From Breoghania corrubedonensis (GTDB taxonomy: Bacteria; Pseudomonadota; Alphaproteobacteria; Rhizobiales; Stappiaceae), in contig NZ_QAYG01000001.1 in NCBI RefSeq assembly GCF_003053845.1, positions 1,184,078 to 1,248,077 on the forward strand: a stretch of DNA of 64,000 nucleotides, in the 5' to 3' direction. The notes beneath the pieces were generated by a model. The model did no database searches, was not told where the DNA came from, and saw only the letters and a list, made by a program, of their open reading frames with translations. Both the position numbers and the translations under genes were made by a program. Below, one piece after another: positions 11,571 to 19,963 of this stretch (position 1 is its first letter; every line of letters starts with the position of its first letter).

Positions 11571-11971
11571 TGTCACGGTCCTTCTGGGAAATGGGTATAG
11601 GAGTGCCGGCGGACGGCCGCCCGCCAAAAGGCCATGAGGAAGTTGCAGGGATTGCGGGGAACGTCAAGTCCCGTGACGGACGATGGACCGGCGAAGTTTC
11701 ACGTAAAGCACGCCGTTTCACGCGCACGAATGCTCCGCTCCCGACCCCGCATGGCGACCCGGACAAGGGCGCAAGCCGGCTCCCTTACGGCACAAGGCGG
11801 CGGGAATGTTCGCGGGCGACACCGCCTCGTATTCGCGAACGAATTCAAGGCGGACACCAGGGTCCGGACCTTCCGGACGACGTTTCCTTCGGGGAATTCG
11901 GTACGTTCGGGAAGCCGGCCGTGCCCCGGTTTCGGGCGTGGCCCGCCTCCCTTGGCAAACAACCGGCGCAG
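11571..11971 (-). other. metK upstream region
   Basis: About 400 bp between the PhrR-like gene and metK, without a recognisable gene. On the minus strand CTTGACG at 11668-11662 is a good alphaproteobacterial -35, but the element 17 bp downstream (AACTTC) is a poor -10, so the promoter call is weak. No SAM-II, SAM/SAH or other riboswitch consensus was recognised by eye. Confidence 0.35.
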
Positions 11972-12379
11972 TCAGGTTTCCTCGCCGGCCACGGCACGCA
12001 CCAGATCGACGATCCGCCGCCGCACCCGGCTGTCCTCGATGCGCACGAAGGCCCGGTTGAGCGCCAGCCCCTCGGAACTGGAGAGGAAATCGACGACATA
12101 GGACGTCGGCTGGGACTCGGCGAAACCGGGCTGGTCCTCCCCCACCCCCGGCGCATCCTCGAAAAAGAACGAAATCGGCACGTTCAGGATGGTGGCGATG
12201 TGCTGAAGCCGGCTGGCGCCGACGCGATTCGTGCCCTTTTCGTATTTCTGGATCTGCTGAAAGGTGATCCCCAGATGCTCGCCCAGCTTCTCCTGGGACA
12301 TGCCGAGCATCATGCGCCTCAGCCGGATCCGACTGCCGACATGGACGTCTACGGGATTGGGTGCTTTCTTACTGGGCAT
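11972..12379 (-). CDS. XRE/Cro-type transcriptional regulator (PhrR/PraR-like)
   Basis: A 135-residue protein with an XRE helix-turn-helix at about residues 15-72 (RIRLRRMMLGMSQEKLGEHL, then ITFQQIQKYEKGTNRV), followed by a short helical domain with SSEGLALNRAFVRIED. Size and position between lnt and metK match the PhrR/PraR regulators of rhizobia; phrR of Sinorhizobium lies next to the lnt homologue actA and responds to acid, and PraR controls biofilm and quorum-sensing genes. The target genes here are unknown. Palindromic boxes upstream suggest autoregulation. Confidence 0.85.
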   Translation of the reverse strand: MPSKKAPNPVDVHVGSRIRLRRMMLGMSQEKLGEHLGITFQQIQKYEKGTNRVGASRLQHIATILNVPISFFFEDAPGVGEDQPGFAESQPTSYVVDFLSSSEGLALNRAFVRIEDSRVRRRIVDLVRAVAGEET

Positions 12380-12389
12380 TTTTCGCCTT

Positions 12390-12449
12390 CATTGTTCTCG
12401 TCAATGTCTGCGGCCTGCTCCGGCGGGCCGGAACATCCTCGACAATGTT
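12390..12449. promoter_or_regulatory. Two operator-like palindromes ahead of the PhrR-like gene
   Basis: Box 1 (12390-12406) is CATTG-N7-CAATG and box 2 (12432-12449) is AACAT-N8-ATGTT. Read on the minus strand, both contain ACATTG(A/T)CGAG, so they look like two copies of one site. Their centres are about 42 bp apart, close to four helical turns. Box 1 is about 10 bp upstream of the start codon. Inferred autoregulatory operators. Confidence 0.4.
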
Positions 12450-13050
12450 AGCCACCGGCGCCCGGCCCGGCCCCAAACGGAACCGCGACAGACGGAATGG
12501 CGACAGACTGCCGCAACGGCATCAGCCGTCGCGAATGATCCCCTCTCACCTTTGCGGATCTCTCCTGTGTGTCCTCCTCCTTGCCTCGCGCCCTCGCATG
12601 ACAGCCCCCTCGCGCGGTCGCGCCTCGCGCAGGTGTCATGAGCGCCCTCTCTCCCCGCCTCGTCACCTGCAGGCCTGACTGCCACTCCCGCGTCCGGGCG
12701 TGCCGTGTCGCTGCGCCGCGCGCGCCCTGCCCGCAAGCGGGCGGGGGGCAAGGCGCCCAACCGACGCCTTCCGCCTCAGATCGGCGCCACCGGGGCGGAG
12801 GGAACGCTTTTCAGGAAGAATCGACGCGCCCGTGCTGGCATTGCGAGCCTCCAATGTCTTGCCAGCCGCACTTTTTCCTGCAGCAGCGGCGGTCGAACAC
12901 GTGCTTTCACTCCACCCGACGCTCGGGCAGGATGCAGGATCGTGCTTGAGCCACTCGCTCGATCACTTGTGACCCGCAAATAATGCCCGCAGCGGAGCCC
13001 CCTCGTCAATTGCTGCAATTTGCTGCGTTTTGTCCGGTCACATCAGGCAA
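12450..13050. other. Non-coding gap between PhrR-like gene and lnt
   Basis: About 600 bp with no supported gene; open frames here are arginine-rich GC artefacts. It holds a third CATTG-N8-CAATG palindrome (12839-12856) resembling the boxes near the regulator, and an AT-richer patch (12985-13030) with two TTGCTGC-type direct repeats just downstream of lnt. A small RNA cannot be excluded, but nothing identifies one. Confidence 0.35.
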
Positions 13051-14670
13051 TTAGGAAAGACCGCGACGACGTGTCCGCGCAACCCCCGCAACCGCGAATA
13101 TCGTAATAAATATCAAGGCCAGAGGCCAGTCGCCAACCTTCACGTAAAGAGTCGGCGCGTCCGCTCCCGGCAGCGCGGAATCGAAGGCGCCCTTGCGGCC
13201 CAGCGGCAATTGGGCACGGATCCGCCCGCGGGCATCAATGACGGCGGAAATGCCGGTATTGGCGTCGCGCACCAACGGCAACCCTTCCTCCACGGCGCGC
13301 AGCCGCGCCTGGCGAAGGTGCTGGTGGGGGCCCGGCGTATCGCCGAACCAGGCATCGTTGGTGAGGTTCAAAAGCCAGCCCGGCCGGTCATCGCGATCGG
13401 CCACGGCACCGGAGAAGATCGCTTCGTAGCAGATCAGCGGCGAGAATTCCGGCGCGCCGGGCGGGCTCAGCTCGCGGTGACGGAAGCCGGGCGTGAAACC
13501 GCCGGGCACGCGCACCAGGTTCTCGAGCCCCAGCCTTGTGAGCAGGGCGCGCAACGGCAGGTATTCCCCGAAGGGGACCAGATGCACCTTGTCATAGGCG
13601 TCGACGATGGTGCCGTCGTCGGTGATCACGTAGATGGAGTTGTAGAAATCGGTCTTGTGCCCCGATGCGCCCGCATCGGCCGCCGGTTCCGCTCGCGCGG
13701 CGCCGGTGATCAGCACGGTTCCTTCGGGAAGCAGCGCCGCGATGGAGGAAAGTGCGCCGGGCTCCTGGGTCAGGATGAAGGGAAAGGCGGATTCCGGCCA
13801 GATCACGTGGGTGATCTTGTCGAGACGGGTATCGTCCGGCCCCAGCGGCGCGGAGGAAAGATCGAGATAGCGCTCGAAGATCCAGCGGGCATTGCCGGGC
13901 ACCCATTTTTCCGCCTGCGGGATGTCGGGCTGAACGATGCGCAGCCGGACATCGGCCACATCCGCCGGCCCCGGCTGGTTCAAACGCCAGGCGCCATATC
14001 CCAGACAGGCCGCGAACAGCACCCCGACGGCGGCGAGGAAGGCGAGGCGGCGGGCGGGGCGCCCCGTATCGGCAAGCACCGCCGGCGCGGCGAAGACCAG
14101 CACGGCGATGAAGCCAAGACCATAAACGCCGACGAGCGCGGCGGGCTGCATCATCACCGTATTGGCGGCGAAACCGTAGCCGATGGCATTCCAGGGAAAC
14201 CCGGTCAGCACGTGGCCGCGCAGCCATTCCGCGCCCGAAATCGCCGCCGCCAACACCAGGATGCGCAAGGGCCCTTCCATCCACAAGAGACGGGAAAGCG
14301 CCGTCGCGCCAGCCCAGAACAGCGCCAGTCCCGCCGGCATCGCCAACACCGCGAACGGCATCATCCAGGCGAAATCGTCGGCCTCCACCAGGAAGGCGGA
14401 GCCGATCCACCACAACCCGGCCAGAAAATAGCCGAACCCGAACCACCAGCCGACGGCCGCCGCACCGCGCACCGCGTTTCCCATCCGCCCTCCATCGTCG
14501 GACACGGTCGCGTCGATCAGCCAGACAAGACCGGGAAAGCAGAGCCAGAGGACGAAGAAAAGATCGAAGGGCGCCTGGGACAGCGCCGCCAGCGCGCCAA
14601 GCAGAAAGGCCGCGCCCCAACGGCGCCAGCCCCAGCTCAAGATCAGCGTATCGGCCAGGCTCTGGATCAT
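13051..14670 (-). CDS. lnt: Apolipoprotein N-acyltransferase
   Basis: Inner-membrane enzyme that N-acylates the diacylglyceryl-cysteine of lipoproteins. The N-terminal half has about six to seven membrane segments; the periplasmic nitrilase domain follows. The catalytic triad is visible as Glu in WPESAFPF, Lys in YDKVHLVPFGEYLP and Cys in ICYEAIF. A last membrane helix precedes the basic C-terminus. Length is about 539 residues from ATG 14670 (MIQSLADTL); in-frame starts at 14688 and 14712 are possible and no SD decides. The rhizobial homologue actA is needed for acid tolerance. It is separated from its usual neighbour corC by two inserted plus-strand genes. Confidence 0.93.
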   Translation of the reverse strand: MIQSLADTLILSWGWRRWGAAFLLGALAALSQAPFDLFFVLWLCFPGLVWLIDATVSDDGGRMGNAVRGAAAVGWWFGFGYFLAGLWWIGSAFLVEADDFAWMMPFAVLAMPAGLALFWAGATALSRLLWMEGPLRILVLAAAISGAEWLRGHVLTGFPWNAIGYGFAANTVMMQPAALVGVYGLGFIAVLVFAAPAVLADTGRPARRLAFLAAVGVLFAACLGYGAWRLNQPGPADVADVRLRIVQPDIPQAEKWVPGNARWIFERYLDLSSAPLGPDDTRLDKITHVIWPESAFPFILTQEPGALSSIAALLPEGTVLITGAARAEPAADAGASGHKTDFYNSIYVITDDGTIVDAYDKVHLVPFGEYLPLRALLTRLGLENLVRVPGGFTPGFRHRELSPPGAPEFSPLICYEAIFSGAVADRDDRPGWLLNLTNDAWFGDTPGPHQHLRQARLRAVEEGLPLVRDANTGISAVIDARGRIRAQLPLGRKGAFDSALPGADAPTLYVKVGDWPLALIFITIFAVAGVARTRRRGLS

Positions 14671-15046
14671 GAACGCGTCCCGAATCATCCCCTGTGCGCG
14701 GGAATGCATCATGTGCGCGGGCCGGCTTGCCCGGTCAAGAGCGGGGGAGGCCGGCGGCCTGTCGCCCCTCCGAACCGCTTTCGCCGACGCGCACCCGTCA
14801 TCTCGCCCGTCATCTCGCCCGTCATCTCGAATGTCGCAGGCCGGGAAAGGACAATATTAGGAGTTGCGGTGGTAAAATCTGACGTAATCGCGGTTGCCCG
14901 CCAGATCAGGTGCCGGATCCCCCGTCAGTTTACGCGGATGCGCCTGACAGGGAATCTCCGCAGGTGCCCTGGAGCAACCAGTTCAAACAAAAGGGGAAAG
15001 TTCTGCTTTTCCCACCCTTACGTGATCACCCTGCCAGGAATGCCAG
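14671..15046. other. Divergent region between lnt and the FIST gene
   Basis: About 375 bp, no gene. It contains a 12-bp tandem repeat, CCCGTCATCTCG, three exact copies at 14794-14829; an AT-richer stretch (14850-14890) likely to hold promoters; and a hairpin GGGGAAA...TTTTCCC (about 14991-15013) shortly before the FIST start. No -35/-10 pair was convincing. Confidence 0.4.
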
Positions 15047-16258
15047 ATGCGGGCTGCCTCCATCATCGTCGACGCGACATCTCAACACGATCTGTCCGGC
15101 AAGCTGGAAGCCGCGCTGCGCACCACCGACATTTCGGCCGACGTCGTCTTCGCGTTCTACGGACAGAACCAGGACGGCGACCGGATCAGCCTGCTCGTTA
15201 CCGACCGTTTTCCAGATGCCACACTGATCGGCGGCAGCTCCTCGCACGGCGTCATGGACCAGTACGGACTGCACCAACCCGACTCCATCGGCCTGCTGAT
15301 GATCGAGGACCCGGACGGCGACTACGGATCCGCCTCCCGCCCGCTGGGAGACGATCCGGCAGGAGCGGCGGAGGAGGCGTTGCGCGCGGCGCTGGAGGAT
15401 GCCGATTGCGCGGGGGAGCTTCCGGATCTGGTGTGGACTTACCAGGCGCCCGGACACGAGGAACAGGTCATGGCCGGGCTCAAGCACCTGGTCGGCGATC
15501 GCTGTCCCGTCATCGGCGGCAGTTCCGCCGATGATGATGCGACCGGCGTGTGGACGCAGATCTCGAGACAAGGCGCGACCCGCGATGCGGTGGTCGTGTG
15601 CGTGCTGTTTCCCTCCCGCCCGCTCGGACACGGTTTCCAGGGCGGATACGAGCCCAACGGCCACACCGGCAAGATCACCCGGATCGACGGAGGCCGGGTG
15701 ACCAAGGTCGAGGGGCCGCGGCACAGCCGCATCATTCTGGAAATCGACGGAAGGCCGGCCGCGGCGGTCTACAATGGCTGGATTGGCGGAGAGCTTGACG
15801 GCAAGCTTGCGACCGGCGGCACAATTCTCGCGGAGACCACCCTGGCACCGCTTTCAGTCTTCGCGGGCGTGGAGGACGGGATAGATCAGTTCCTGCTCGT
15901 CCATCCCGAAGCGGTACGCTCGGATGGCGCGTTGACCACCTTCGCCGACGTGGAGGAAGGCAGCGAGATCTACTGCATGCGCGGCGATGCCGATCACCTG
16001 ATCCGCCGTGCAGGCCGCGTCTCGCGCCATGCGATCAAGCAGATCGAGGATGCCGAGCCCGCCGCCGCCCTGATCATTTTCTGCGGCGGTTGCCGGATGG
16101 CGGTGCGCGACCAGATCGGCGAGCTGTGCGGCACGCTGAAGGCGGAACTCGGCGACACCCCGACAATCGTCTGCTTCACCTTCGGCGAACAGGGGCCGGT
16201 CCTCGGAGTCAACAAACACGGCAACCTGATGATTTCCGCCGTCGTTTTCGGATCATAA
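15047..16258 (+). CDS. FIST-domain sensor protein (NosP-like)
   Basis: A soluble 403-residue protein made of FIST_N (about residues 25-225, with ATLIGGSSSHGV and CPVIGGSSADDD) and FIST_C (about 230-385, with ALIIFCGGCR and TFGEQGPV). No signal peptide or membrane segment. FIST domains were predicted to bind small ligands; the FIST protein NosP binds heme and senses nitric oxide, and is often encoded beside a histidine kinase or a c-di-GMP enzyme. Here the next gene starts 4 bp after the stop and encodes a GGDEF-EAL protein, which supports a NosP-like role, though heme binding is unproven. An SD (CCAGGA) lies 8 nt before the ATG. Confidence 0.85.
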   Translation: MRAASIIVDATSQHDLSGKLEAALRTTDISADVVFAFYGQNQDGDRISLLVTDRFPDATLIGGSSSHGVMDQYGLHQPDSIGLLMIEDPDGDYGSASRPLGDDPAGAAEEALRAALEDADCAGELPDLVWTYQAPGHEEQVMAGLKHLVGDRCPVIGGSSADDDATGVWTQISRQGATRDAVVVCVLFPSRPLGHGFQGGYEPNGHTGKITRIDGGRVTKVEGPRHSRIILEIDGRPAAAVYNGWIGGELDGKLATGGTILAETTLAPLSVFAGVEDGIDQFLLVHPEAVRSDGALTTFADVEEGSEIYCMRGDADHLIRRAGRVSRHAIKQIEDAEPAAALIIFCGGCRMAVRDQIGELCGTLKAELGDTPTIVCFTFGEQGPVLGVNKHGNLMISAVVFGS

Positions 16259-16262
16259 GCGT

Positions 16263-18167
16263 ATGGACAGACTGCAGACCACAGAAGCTCTTCGCGACAT
16301 CCTGCAGGACCTGCAGAGCGAGAACGCATCACTGCGGCTGCAGGCCTACCAGGCGAAGCTGCTGTTCACCGCGCTGCAGTCGCTGCTGTCGCTGGACACC
16401 GGCAACGATCCCTTTGCCATCGCCTTCTCGTCGCTGCACGCGGTGTTCGAATTCCATGCCGCGGCGGTGCTGGAGGAAGAAGGCGAGACGCTGGAGTGCA
16501 TCGCAGCCACCGAACCCGTGCTGGTGGGCACGCATTGGGAAAAGACCCGGCTGATGTGCAAGGTCATGGGCGGGCGTGCGGTCGCGCGGATCGAGGGCGG
16601 CGGACGGTCCCCCACCCCGTCGTGCCCCACGCGCGTCTCGTCGGACCAGCCGGCCATGTTCCTGCCGATCCGCCTGGAGGCAAAGCGCGGTGCGATCGTG
16701 CTCCTGCGCAAGGTCGGACAAGACGAGTTCACGCGCGATGACGCCACGCTGGGCGAACGTTTCTCTCTGCTCGTCTCCCAGGCCCTTGCCATCCGCCGGC
16801 GGCATCTGAGCGAAACGGAGAACCAGCGGCTGCAGGAAATCACCCGCAAACTGGAACACCGCGCGCAGCACGATGACCTGACCGGGATCGGCAACCGGGC
16901 GATGCTGGAAAAACACGGCACCGAGGCGCTGGCGGCACGGCGCGAGGACGAGATGATCGCGCTGGTCTTCATCGACGTCGACCGGTTCAAGCGGATAAAC
17001 GACTATTTCGGCCACGAGACCGGCGACGCGCTGTTGAAGGAGATCGCGGAGCGGCTGTCGGTGGAGGCACGCCCCGCCGACTGCGTCGTGCGGATGAGCG
17101 GCGACGAATTCGTCATGCTGATCAGCGAACTGCCGGATATGGAGGCAGCGCGGGCGCGGGTGGAGCGGGTGCGCCGGACGCTGTGCAGCGCCTATGAGGT
17201 GGAGGGCAACCGGATCGACGTGACCTCCTCGATCGGCATCAGCGTGTGTCCGGAACACGGCACCGATTTCCAGGAATTGCGGCGCAACGCCGATTTCGCG
17301 ATGTACCGTTCAAAGGCCGAGCGGCACGGCGCGGCGGTGTTCTTCTCCACCGAGATGGGCCGCGACCTCTACAGCTCGATGCAGCTCGAACGGCTGCTGC
17401 GCGAGGCGGTCGCGGACAAGGCCTTCGAGGCGGCGCTTCAGCCCAAGGTGCGCATCGCCGATCGCAAGGTGGTCGGTTTTGAAGCGCTGGCGCGCTGGCG
17501 CGAGGCGGACGGAACGATACGCTCGCCGGCCGAGTTCATTCGCGCGGCGACGGAGCTGGGGATTCTCAACGCGGTGACGTTCGCGGTCACCGACGACGCG
17601 CTGACGGCGTTCGACACGCTTGATGCGCGCTTTGGCGACGAAACGTCCATTTCGCTCAACATCGCCGGCGTGCAGGCGAACGATCCCGCCTTCATGTCGG
17701 AACTGGTCGCCCGGATCGCCGCCAGCGGGCGCGCCAACCGGATGATTCTGGAACTGACGGAGGACGCGATGGTGCAGGCGCCGCAATTCCGTGCCCTCGT
17801 CCAGCCGATGCTGGGCGCGGCCGGCATTCGCGTCGCCATCGACGATTTCGGCACCGGCTATTCGTCGCTGTCGGTGCTGGCCGAACTGGACGCGAACGAG
17901 TTGAAGATCGACCGTTCCTTCGTCACCCGCATCCAGCACAATCCGGTCAACCAGCGCATCCTGCGTGCCATCGAGAAGCTGGCGCACGCCATCGGGCTGC
18001 AGACGGTGGCGGAAGGCGTGGAGACCCAGGAGGAACTCGCCTACCTTCAGGCGGAAAGCTCCGTCGACATCGTTCAGGGCTACTACTTCTCCCCGCCGAT
18101 GATGGTGGAAGACCTGATGATCTGGACGCGACCCGACACCTCGCGACGGATCTACCGGATCGGCTGA
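16263..18167 (+). CDS. GGDEF-EAL bifunctional c-di-GMP enzyme with GAF-like N-terminus
   Basis: 634 residues. The N-terminal part (about 1-185) has a short coiled coil and a GAF-like sensor region. GGDEF (about 195-355): DDLTGIGNRAMLE, then SGDEF near residue 279 in place of GGDEF, with an intact inhibitory I-site RPAD exactly five residues before it. EAL (about 375-620): FEALARWR, NIAG, ELTED, DDFGTGYSSL, KIDRSF, AEGVET and QGYYFSPP, so the phosphodiesterase residues look complete. It may hydrolyse c-di-GMP with GTP or c-di-GMP regulation through GGDEF, but both activities are possible. Cytosolic. Translationally close to the FIST gene. Confidence 0.93.
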   Translation: MDRLQTTEALRDILQDLQSENASLRLQAYQAKLLFTALQSLLSLDTGNDPFAIAFSSLHAVFEFHAAAVLEEEGETLECIAATEPVLVGTHWEKTRLMCKVMGGRAVARIEGGGRSPTPSCPTRVSSDQPAMFLPIRLEAKRGAIVLLRKVGQDEFTRDDATLGERFSLLVSQALAIRRRHLSETENQRLQEITRKLEHRAQHDDLTGIGNRAMLEKHGTEALAARREDEMIALVFIDVDRFKRINDYFGHETGDALLKEIAERLSVEARPADCVVRMSGDEFVMLISELPDMEAARARVERVRRTLCSAYEVEGNRIDVTSSIGISVCPEHGTDFQELRRNADFAMYRSKAERHGAAVFFSTEMGRDLYSSMQLERLLREAVADKAFEAALQPKVRIADRKVVGFEALARWREADGTIRSPAEFIRAATELGILNAVTFAVTDDALTAFDTLDARFGDETSISLNIAGVQANDPAFMSELVARIAASGRANRMILELTEDAMVQAPQFRALVQPMLGAAGIRVAIDDFGTGYSSLSVLAELDANELKIDRSFVTRIQHNPVNQRILRAIEKLAHAIGLQTVAEGVETQEELAYLQAESSVDIVQGYYFSPPMMVEDLMIWTRPDTSRRIYRIG

Positions 18168-18234: not shown

Positions 18235-19350
18235 CTACTCCGCCGCCTGTTCCTCGCCGTCGATCTTGCGGGCGCGGCGGCGGGCGTCGGCGGTCGGCAG
18301 GCCTTCAGCCCCCTCGCGGATGATCTTCACCCGCTTCACCCGGCGCGGATCGGCGTCCATCACCTCGAATTCCAGGCCCGGGATCATGTCGGCCGAGATC
18401 AGCTCGCCACGCACCGGCACCCGGCCGACGATGGTGAACAGAAGGCCGCCGAGCGTGTCGATTTCCTCCGACAGCTCGCCCACGTCGAAGCCCGCGCCGA
18501 GTTCCGCCTCGAGGTCCTCGATGGTGACGCGCGCATCCGCGACCCAGGCGCCCTCGCCCTGGCGCACCAGCATCGGCTCCTCGTCCTCGTCGTGCTCGTC
18601 CTCGATGTCGCCGACGACCGTCTCCACCAGATCCTCCAGCGAGACCAGACCGTCCGTGCCGCCATATTCGTCGATGACCAGCGCCATCTGCACGCGTGAC
18701 GCCTGCATCTGCGCCATCAGATCGGCCGCGCGCATGGAGGGCGGCACGAACAGCACCGTGCGGATGATGTCGAGACCGGCGAGCGGGCGGGCAAGATCCA
18801 GATGGACGGGTTCATGGTCGTCGTCGTCGCCCGCCTTCGCCGCCGCGTTCGCGTCGCCGGGGCTCTCCTCCACGCCGTGCGGCGTGCCGTTCAGCGCGCC
18901 GGTAAAAAAGGAGAGAAGGTCCTTGATGTGGACCATGCCGCGCGGATCATCCAGCGTCTCGTGATAGACGGGCATGCGCGAATGGCCGGAAGCGCGGAAT
19001 TCCTCCATCAGGTCGCCCAGCGAGATATTCTCGTCGACCGCATCGATATCGGCGCGCGGGACCATCACGTCCTCCACACGCACCTCGCGCAGGCGCAGGA
19101 TGTTGCCCAGCAGCACGCGCTCCTCGGGCGAGAAGTTGGCATCGCCGCCGTAATCGGCGGCCAGCACATGTTCGAGGTTTTCGCGCAGGGAGCCGTTTCG
19201 GCGCAGCACGAGCTGGCTGATCAGCCGGGACAGCCAGGGGCGGGAATCGCGCTCGATCTCCGTCTCGTAACGGGAGGCCGGCGCGGTGGAACTTTGGCCC
19301 GGTTCTTCGGGCGAAGAAGGCTCGGGAGTTGAACTCTCAGGCAATGTCAT
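18235..19350 (-). CDS. CorC/HlyC-family CBS-domain protein (YbeX-like)
   Basis: Cytosolic protein with two CBS domains (about residues 85-230; VMVPRADIDAVDEN and GHSRMPVYHETLDDPRGMVHIKDLL typify the first) and a C-terminal CorC_HlyC/transporter-associated domain (about 265-345). Length is about 371 residues. CorC/YbeX relatives are linked to Mg/Co efflux and to ribosome homeostasis; TlyC/hemolysin labels are historical. The loop between the CBS domains carries an Asp/Ala-rich insertion. ATG 19350 is taken; the frame upstream overlaps ybeY. It belongs to the ybeZ-ybeY-ybeX-lnt order, but lnt is displaced here. Confidence 0.9.
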   Translation of the reverse strand: MTLPESSTPEPSSPEEPGQSSTAPASRYETEIERDSRPWLSRLISQLVLRRNGSLRENLEHVLAADYGGDANFSPEERVLLGNILRLREVRVEDVMVPRADIDAVDENISLGDLMEEFRASGHSRMPVYHETLDDPRGMVHIKDLLSFFTGALNGTPHGVEESPGDANAAAKAGDDDDHEPVHLDLARPLAGLDIIRTVLFVPPSMRAADLMAQMQASRVQMALVIDEYGGTDGLVSLEDLVETVVGDIEDEHDEDEEPMLVRQGEGAWVADARVTIEDLEAELGAGFDVGELSEEIDTLGGLLFTIVGRVPVRGELISADMIPGLEFEVMDADPRRVKRVKIIREGAEGLPTADARRRARKIDGEEQAAE

Positions 19351-19387
19351 TGTCTCGCACGGCCCCATCGGGAGGCCGGTTTTCGTC

Positions 19388-19963
19388 CTATGCTGATGGA
19401 TCAAGCCGGTAAGGGTCGGCAATGCCGAGGCTCGCCAGGATCCGTGTTTCGAGGCCTTCCATTATTTCGGCCTCCTGGTCAACTTGGTGATCATACCCGA
19501 AAAGGTGAAGGATTCCGTGTACAATTAAATGAAGAAGATGGTCTTCGAAGCCGCCCGCGGCCTCTTCCGCCTCGCGCGCCACCGTCTCGCGCGCCAGCAC
19601 GATATCCCCCAGAAGCGGCCCGAAGACGGGACCGTCCTCGTCGCCGCCGGGAAAGGAGAGCACGTTCGTCGGCTTGTCCTTGCCTCGATAGTCGCGGTTG
19701 AGCACCTGCACGGCCGCGTCGTCGGAAAAGACGAGACTGAGTTCGGAACCCGGCAGATAGCGCAAGTCCGCCTCGCGCCGCGCGGCGGCAAAGGCGCGCG
19801 CGGCCAGCGGATGAAGCCTCTCCTCATCCGGCCAGCCGTCCGCGTTGATCGTCAGATCGATCTCTATATCGCCCGCAAGATCGTCCCCGGAGGGATCGTC
19901 ACGAGAGAGATCGTGTCTGGGCAGATCGCCGGTCGTGCCCGTCGCCTGTGTCACGTTGGTCAT
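19388..19963 (-). CDS. ybeY: Endoribonuclease YbeY
   Basis: Zinc-dependent RNase used in 16S rRNA 3'-end maturation and ribosome quality control. The HHH metal motif is intact: HGILHLFGYDH near residue 145-155. NRDYRGKDKPTNVLSFP is the usual substrate-binding segment. 191 residues, with a longer Asp-rich N-terminus (about 30 residues) than enterobacterial YbeY. The ATG overlaps the phoH stop as ATGA, so the two are translationally coupled. Confidence 0.95.
   Translation of the reverse strand: MTNVTQATGTTGDLPRHDLSRDDPSGDDLAGDIEIDLTINADGWPDEERLHPLAARAFAAARREADLRYLPGSELSLVFSDDAAVQVLNRDYRGKDKPTNVLSFPGGDEDGPVFGPLLGDIVLARETVAREAEEAAGGFEDHLLHLIVHGILHLFGYDHQVDQEAEIMEGLETRILASLGIADPYRLDPSA

Follow-up and report, generated by a model that had tools for sequence, protein, structure and literature searches.

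What do a gene for a FIST-domain protein and a gene for a GGDEF-EAL protein do between lnt and corC of Breoghania corrubedonensis, and how did they come to lie there? The pair is found in a stretch of 64,000 nucleotides (the window; NZ_QAYG01000001.1, positions 1,184,078 to 1,248,077) on contig 1 of the 5.33-Mb genome of this bacterium (G000). We consider it probable that the pair constitutes a two-gene, two-protein switch for cyclic di-GMP (c-di-GMP) that works without a phosphorelay, in which the FIST protein would control the enzyme by docking on a GAF-containing domain, and that it belongs to a clade of FIST proteins with exchangeable outputs that is distinct from NosP.

A preliminary description of this DNA had reported a FIST protein with a GAF-like/GGDEF/EAL protein 4 bp downstream of it, both on the strand opposite to the housekeeping genes around them, and our analysis confirmed both points. 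The FIST open reading frame (ORF) scored above both of its Pfam cut-offs (FIST, 91.6 vs 23.2 bits; FIST_C, 75.2 vs 28.5 bits), and the partner ORF scored above those for GGDEF (140 bits) and EAL (195.8 bits). The Pfam GAF_3 match of the partner was weak (E = 0.00049, below the curated cut-off); residues 1–200 were modelled by AlphaFold2 (AF2) as coiled coil-GAF-coiled coil (pLDDT 91.3), and GAF structures were the top Foldseek matches of this N-terminus, which assigns it the GAF fold. Scans for promoters and terminators gave nothing above chance. The features referred to below are:

15047..16258, + strand: FIST protein, 403 amino acids, presumed cytosolic sensor with a Toblerone-like fold (Pfam FIST and FIST_C, AF2, structural matches)
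15140..15715, + strand: FIST N domain, residues 32-223 (Pfam)
15644..15646, + strand: Gly200 codon, column of the conserved NosP-family His (alignment)
15758..16198, + strand: FIST C domain, residues 238-384 (Pfam)
15902..15904, + strand: His286 codon (clade alignment)
16082..16084, + strand: Cys346 codon, aligned with FBXO22 C326 (alignments)
16187..16189, + strand: Glu381 codon, aligned with FBXO22 E362 (alignments)
16217..16219, + strand: His391 codon (alignment)
16263..18167, + strand: coiled coil-GAF-GGDEF-EAL protein, 634 amino acids, presumed c-di-GMP phosphodiesterase/cyclase
16263..16862, + strand: N-terminal coiled coil-GAF-coiled coil, also present in the kinases paired with other FISTs, candidate domain for FIST docking
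16863..17324, + strand: GGDEF domain (Pfam)
17070..17081, + strand: I-site RPAD (R270-D273)
17097..17111, + strand: SGDEF active-site motif (S279)
17394..18098, + strand: EAL domain, catalytic residues in place
13051..14712, − strand: flanking gene lnt
18235..19422, − strand: flanking gene corC

FIST and GAF partners with changing outputs

Using a FIST alignment (A1), we scanned one genome per species from 84,980 species and obtained 160 matching stretches, which yielded 125 relatives; the best 80 of these were fetched, and all locus counts come from these 80. Two of them (L067 and L106) supplied FISTs to A1 and kinases that served as domain queries. The hosts include Alpha-, Beta- and Gammaproteobacteria, Nitrospira, Chloroflexi, Nannocystis and others. 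An ORF directly followed the FIST gene in 73 of the 80 loci and encoded a GGDEF-EAL protein in 33, a kinase in 28, a hybrid kinase in 10 and neither in 2, so that the class of the next gene could be assigned in 71. The gaps between FIST and partner ranged from -88 to +68 bases, as counted to the first possible start codon.

What these partners have in common is an N-terminal part of about 200 residues. A hidden Markov model (HMM) of this domain, built from 34 GGDEF-EAL partners (the 33 above and that of the window), matched 37 of the 38 kinase partners at E < 1e-3 and none of 459 decoys (other ORFs of the same loci, together with reversed partners) at E < 0.01. The median E was 9e-32 for the kinases (27 of 28 matched) and 6.7e-28 for the hybrid kinases (10 of 10). 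A kinase-based HMM likewise matched all 34 GGDEF-EAL partners, and Pfam GAF_2 was found at E ≤ 0.1 in 57 of 72 members.

We then compared this domain along the FIST tree, which was divided into two sides at a 33-row branch. N-terminal domains from the same side but with different outputs averaged 29.8% identity (277 pairs), while those from different sides with the same output averaged 21.0% (272 pairs). The domain of kinase L036 showed a mean identity of 43.5% to the 28 GGDEF-EAL partners in its own FIST clade versus 21.2% to the 33 kinases elsewhere; the other three kinases nested in that clade followed the same trend, and in three Nitrospira-type GGDEF-EAL partners nested among kinases the domain also went with the FIST. 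By these identities, the coiled coil-GAF domain tracks the FIST lineage rather than the output. A minimum of three changes of output is required by the FIST tree, which holds 74 of 81 rows (L031, L047, L055, L076, L096, L107 and L108 are omitted, and the output count leaves three more unscored), was built by a quick method and has several long branches and open forks.

In the mechanism that we favour, the FIST protein would be a soluble ligand sensor and would dock on the partner encoded directly downstream at its coiled coil-GAF N-terminus; acting through the helices flanking the GAF domain, it would shift the enzyme between breakdown of c-di-GMP by the EAL domain and its synthesis by the SGDEF domain, which may be active. 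FIST and GAF form the constant core of the clade, and the output (GGDEF-EAL, histidine kinase or hybrid kinase) is swappable. The anatomy of the pair, its derived position, its recurrence, the common GAF domain and the changes of output can be read from the sequences; docking, the direction of control and the catalytic activities are proposed. Direct action of a separate sensor on an enzyme encoded by a neighbouring gene has been described for NspS and MbaA, the latter with SGDEF and EVL motifs (PMC8079147; this and the other papers are cited for passages of each). The two proteins could also be merely co-transcribed and independent in action. We regard this as highly improbable in view of the adjacency and the same GAF domain in 71 of the 80 loci, across several phyla and with differing outputs, and of the lack of any other steady neighbour: in the 33 GGDEF-EAL loci, no Pfam family occurred in more than 3 of the 89 flanking ORFs scanned (110-700 amino acids, at most two per side within about 3.2 kb).

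Several observations weigh against the proposed switch. Nine of the 80 loci have no classified partner: the FIST gene is at a contig end in L047 and L076 and precedes a short ORF without a match in L096 and L107; L031 is a frameshifted Breoghania copy; L059 was lost to the start-codon filter, yet has GAF, GGDEF and EAL matches; and three Nannocystis loci (L094, L102 and L104) have just weak GAF-domain matches. The kinase partner L091 was the one missed by the GGDEF-EAL-based HMM (E = 0.2). Among 289 genomes of the class, a related GAF domain was matched in five other genomes, in all five without a FIST gene within 1.5 kb on either side, and this GAF domain could thus sense on its own; each of the five genomes encodes a FIST protein elsewhere. 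Finally, both genes of the pair are frameshifted in another Breoghania genome (G002, described below), and it is possible either that the pair is dispensable there or that the sequence of this metagenome-assembled genome (MAG) contains errors.

The idea that the GAF domain occurs only with FIST was ruled out by the same five genomes. About 10 kb of neighbours were read by eye at three of these loci; in L124 and L125 (from G142 and G269), kinase-like proteins with the related GAF domain and no FIST nearby adjoin a receiver-type protein. We also considered the gene neighbourhood as a hint to the ligand and set it aside, as no Pfam family exceeded three members; a link to methylotrophy or denitrification suggested by some host names was dropped. 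By eye, a more distant FIST in L025 (6004-8007; G122) is followed by a nucleotide cyclase-like ORF with a coiled coil, a possible further output.

As for the enzyme itself, the preliminary description had called the EAL motifs complete, the GGDEF motif SGDEF and the RxxD I-site intact, and each statement held when the residues were checked (S279, R270/D273). In the window EAL domain, the catalytic positions E407, N466, E497, D527, D528, K548, E584 and Q605 are all in place, and these residues are kept in 33 or 34 of the 34 GGDEF-EAL partners. The G, D, E and F of the GGDEF motif are kept in all 34, the motif reading SGDEF in 27, GGDEF in 6 and NGDEF in 1; at the I-site, all 34 retain the Asp and 30 retain the Arg. 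The window motif differs from the active-cyclase pattern GG[DE]EF, but with SGDEF in 27 of 34 partners it is a trait of the group and not decay in G000. Among published proteins, the SGDEF-bearing ECA3270 is cited as active and VCA0965 lost its activity when changed to Ser (PMC3974145); MbaA needs its SGDEF domain for the response in vivo (PMC8079147). We infer that the window partner is a two-way enzyme, with phosphodiesterase the safer activity to assign.

NosP and other known systems

The preliminary description had labelled the FIST protein NosP-like. NosP proteins are reported to bind heme and nitric oxide (NO) through their FIST domain and to control kinases and c-di-GMP enzymes (PMC12570481, PMC8846402), and CdpA, a FIST-containing phosphodiesterase, is reported to be inhibited by heme (PMC8846402), so the window FIST could be a NosP-type heme protein and the pair an NO switch for c-di-GMP. 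For membership in NosP we used the NCBIfam equivalog NF041558, with its cut-off of 450 bits over the full profile. The window FIST reached 27.5 bits over profile positions 135-238 of 368, which places it outside. Some match to the profile was found in 74 of 77 members of the clade, the best with E = 2.7e-15, versus 1.9e-115 for a NosP-like protein of the same genome.

A search of the whole G000 genome with the NosP model returned three FIST proteins, at 386, 112 and 20.9 bits, the last being the window FIST. The first (G000:C1:35272-36372; L011, 8210-9388; beyond the window) is a full-length NosP-like FIST, itself under 450 bits, and is followed by a hybrid histidine kinase-like ORF, which is the arrangement of published NosP-kinase systems (PMC12570481, PMC11237717). 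The second (G000:C1:1256991-1258097; L012, 8791-10854; ~9 kb past the window end) appears by eye to be a FIST joined to a chemoreceptor-like signalling domain, after which come two double-receiver-like ORFs.

An alignment to NosP, proposed in the preliminary description as a check of the heme-ligand histidine, spoke indirectly against NosP. We placed 77 clade members, nine NosP-family proteins (9 read of 11 fetched, L127 and L136 having given none; six of the nine reach 450 bits or more) and four other FISTs in one alignment; alignment A3 of the clade holds the window FIST and those of 76 of the 80 loci (L031, L055, L059 and L108 left out). Two columns were His in all nine NosP-family proteins. 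The first corresponds to Gly200 of the window FIST and is Gly in 77/77 clade members and in 4/4 other FISTs, and we infer that a His in this column defines the NosP family, a test that is indirect in that the cited passages do not name the heme ligand of NosP. The second is His391, which is His in every FIST compared. Conversely, His286 is His in 77/77 clade members and in none of the nine NosP-family or four other FISTs.

By profile score and alignment, then, the window FIST is a FIST protein outside the NosP family, and binding of heme or NO, though possible, finds no support in this clade. We hold a NosP-type NO switch to be distinctly unlikely, given the Gly in place of the NosP-family His, the low NosP score and the presence in G000 of a separate NosP-like protein beside a hybrid kinase-like ORF of its own. 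Of the NO- or ligand-controlled c-di-GMP switch put forward in the preliminary description, control by a ligand stands as the best reading of the partner's domains and motifs, while the NosP/NO part is not supported by the NosP score or by Gly200.

The closest published likenesses can be set beside the pair as follows. The NosP-NahK-NarR and NosP-NosK-NosR systems share a FIST gene beside a signalling enzyme and a c-di-GMP output (PMC12570481, PMC11237717, PMC8846402); besides the differences in score and His, no kinase stands between sensor and GGDEF-EAL protein here, and the window partner has a coiled coil-GAF domain, whereas the partner of the NosP-like protein of G000 starts with a coiled coil-/PAS-like region (by eye). 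NspS-MbaA of Vibrio cholerae is alike in its separate sensor, its adjacent-gene enzyme and the SGDEF and EVL motifs of MbaA; NspS, however, binds polyamines in the periplasm and MbaA is an inner-membrane protein (PMC8079147), whereas in the window pair a FIST protein takes the place of the sensor, with GAF as the proposed docking site. CdpA, likened here by its description, has a FIST input and a c-di-GMP phosphodiesterase output, with heme as its reported inhibitor (PMC8846402), but is one protein (FIST-FIST_C plus EAL), whereas FIST and EAL of the window are split over two ORFs. Among the titles listed in literature searches, from which older FIST papers may be missing, none concerned a FIST with a GAF partner. 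The loci set apart from the NosP heme sensors a second FIST clade, present in several phyla and usually paired with a protein that carries the proposed GAF docking domain, and FIST signalling becomes modular and testable, with one proposed interface and several outputs.

The FIST fold and a conserved Cys/Glu pair

The AF2 model of the FIST protein (pLDDT 94.8) had as its best structural match the human ubiquitin ligase protein FBXO22 (Z 20.3, rmsd 3.3 over 257 residues), followed at Z 12.8-15.1 by cyanuric acid hydrolase (15.1), barbiturase and chorismatase; identities over these matches were 8-14%. Searches of PDB sequences came up without a FIST structure when the query was the window FIST, the clade profile or either of two single FISTs; only a profile of 10 mixed FISTs brought FBXO22 to the top, with a marginal E of 0.022.

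The resemblance to cyclic amide hydrolases and chorismatases allows another division of labour, in which sensing falls to the GAF domain and the FIST protein is a Toblerone-fold enzyme that makes or removes the GAF ligand. This would agree with the related GAF domains that lack an adjacent FIST and with the one Cys, one Glu and one His conserved across the kinds of FIST compared. We nevertheless find it doubtful: the matches are at 8-14% identity, the top match, FBXO22, is a substrate receptor and not an enzyme, and the characterised FIST proteins in the passages cited act as sensors.

FBXO22 resembles the window FIST in fold and in an aligned Cys/Glu pair; it differs in being the substrate receptor of an SCF ligase, with 10-12% identity to FIST and heme-insensitive binding of BACH1 (PMC11185555). 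Counted from residue 301 in a 403-residue chain, the bacterial Cys column aligned with FBXO22 C326 and the Glu of the GE motif with E362. Cys346 is Cys in 77/77 clade members and 4/4 other FISTs; the invariant Cys of the NosP family fell in the same column in one alignment (with one NosP-like row) and two columns off in another. Glu381 and His391 are also kept in 9/9 NosP-family proteins and 4/4 other FISTs, and as both fall within patterns used for the scan, selection of the sequences accounts for part of their invariance in the clade.

In FBXO22, C326 is reported to form a hemithioacetal with aldehyde degraders, and E362A to abolish their action (PMC13316043), while the published structure was described as having no obvious pocket (PMC11185555). 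The occurrence of FIST in prokaryotes is remarked upon in one of PMC13316043, PMC11208438 and PMC11185555, and a term search of passages from these three papers found no comparison of C326 with bacterial proteins. It is conceivable, if rather unlikely, that FISTs of the clade are thiol-based sensors of electrophiles, including aldehydes, with Cys346 and Glu381 (perhaps with His391) as the bacterial counterparts of C326 and E362, and that a covalent or redox change at this site is the signal, which a dedicated GAF docking domain relays to one of several interchangeable outputs (in the window, the c-di-GMP enzyme). Were the Cys/Glu pair the sensing site, it would provide a ligand chemistry for the FIST domain and a link to the human ubiquitin ligase site used in targeted degradation.

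Origin of the pair between corC and lnt

That the pair was acquired at this site, as the preliminary description proposed, is borne out by the corC-lnt spacing in related genomes. We searched 31 genomes and placed corC in 30 (G063 gave no match at E ≤ 1e-40) and lnt in all 31. In 17 of the 18 other genomes of the genus and family, the two genes, after correction for unaligned ends, lie 4-223 bp apart on one strand; the junction is closed in the congener G001, at 110 bp. The sole open junction among the 18 is that of the Breoghania MAG G002 (matching record NZ_JASJAV010000005), which bears the same FIST/GGDEF-EAL pair in frameshifted form; the spacing is 3525 bp in G000 and 5199 bp in G002. Elsewhere in the order, corC and lnt were both placed in 11 genomes and are adjacent in 8 but not in 3, one of which (G068) has them on separate contigs and settles nothing.

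By this comparison, the order corC-FIST-GGDEF-EAL-lnt is derived, and an ancestral corC-FIST-GGDEF-lnt order is ruled out by the closed junction in 17 of 18 relatives. For both flanking proteins, G000 and G002 agree better with one another than with G001 (lnt, 83% vs 65%; corC, 76% vs 67%). The simplest reading is that the pair was inserted once, in the common ancestor of these two of three congeners. Among the 80 named FIST relatives, lnt and corC lie beside the pair in the Breoghania record only. The window FIST was matched in 4 of 101 relatives' genomes (E ≤ 1e-10, own genome included), G001 not being one of them, and in 8 of 385 genomes of the class (own included), with one other strong match, in G410. 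Carriage on a plasmid was considered and rejected, as the single candidate record, from Aeromonas, is chromosome-sized at 4.9 Mb.

The G002 copies are interrupted by frameshifts, one in the FIST gene and several in the enzyme gene, which may reflect recent decay or sequencing errors. The matches to lnt and corC each run in one frame there, although the corC match has a single reported in-frame stop, and the xre gene also shifts frame. The ratio of nonsynonymous to synonymous differences (pN/pS) was 0.34 and 0.36 for the aligned pieces of the pair, compared with 0.39 for corC and 0.21 for lnt; on these ratios, the aligned pair pieces in G002 are under purifying selection.

Three smaller observations concern the surroundings of the pair. 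In G002 (L009, about 11955-13400), an MFS-like gene that looks broken by eye lies between the pair and corC and is missing from the window. In a Polyangia MAG (L082, 3752-4675), a weak lnt-like match (29.6%) lies just upstream of a FIST-kinase pair, probably by coincidence. In the window, the region between lnt and the FIST gene holds, by eye, a 12-base unit (cccgtcatctcg) three times in tandem at 14794-14829.

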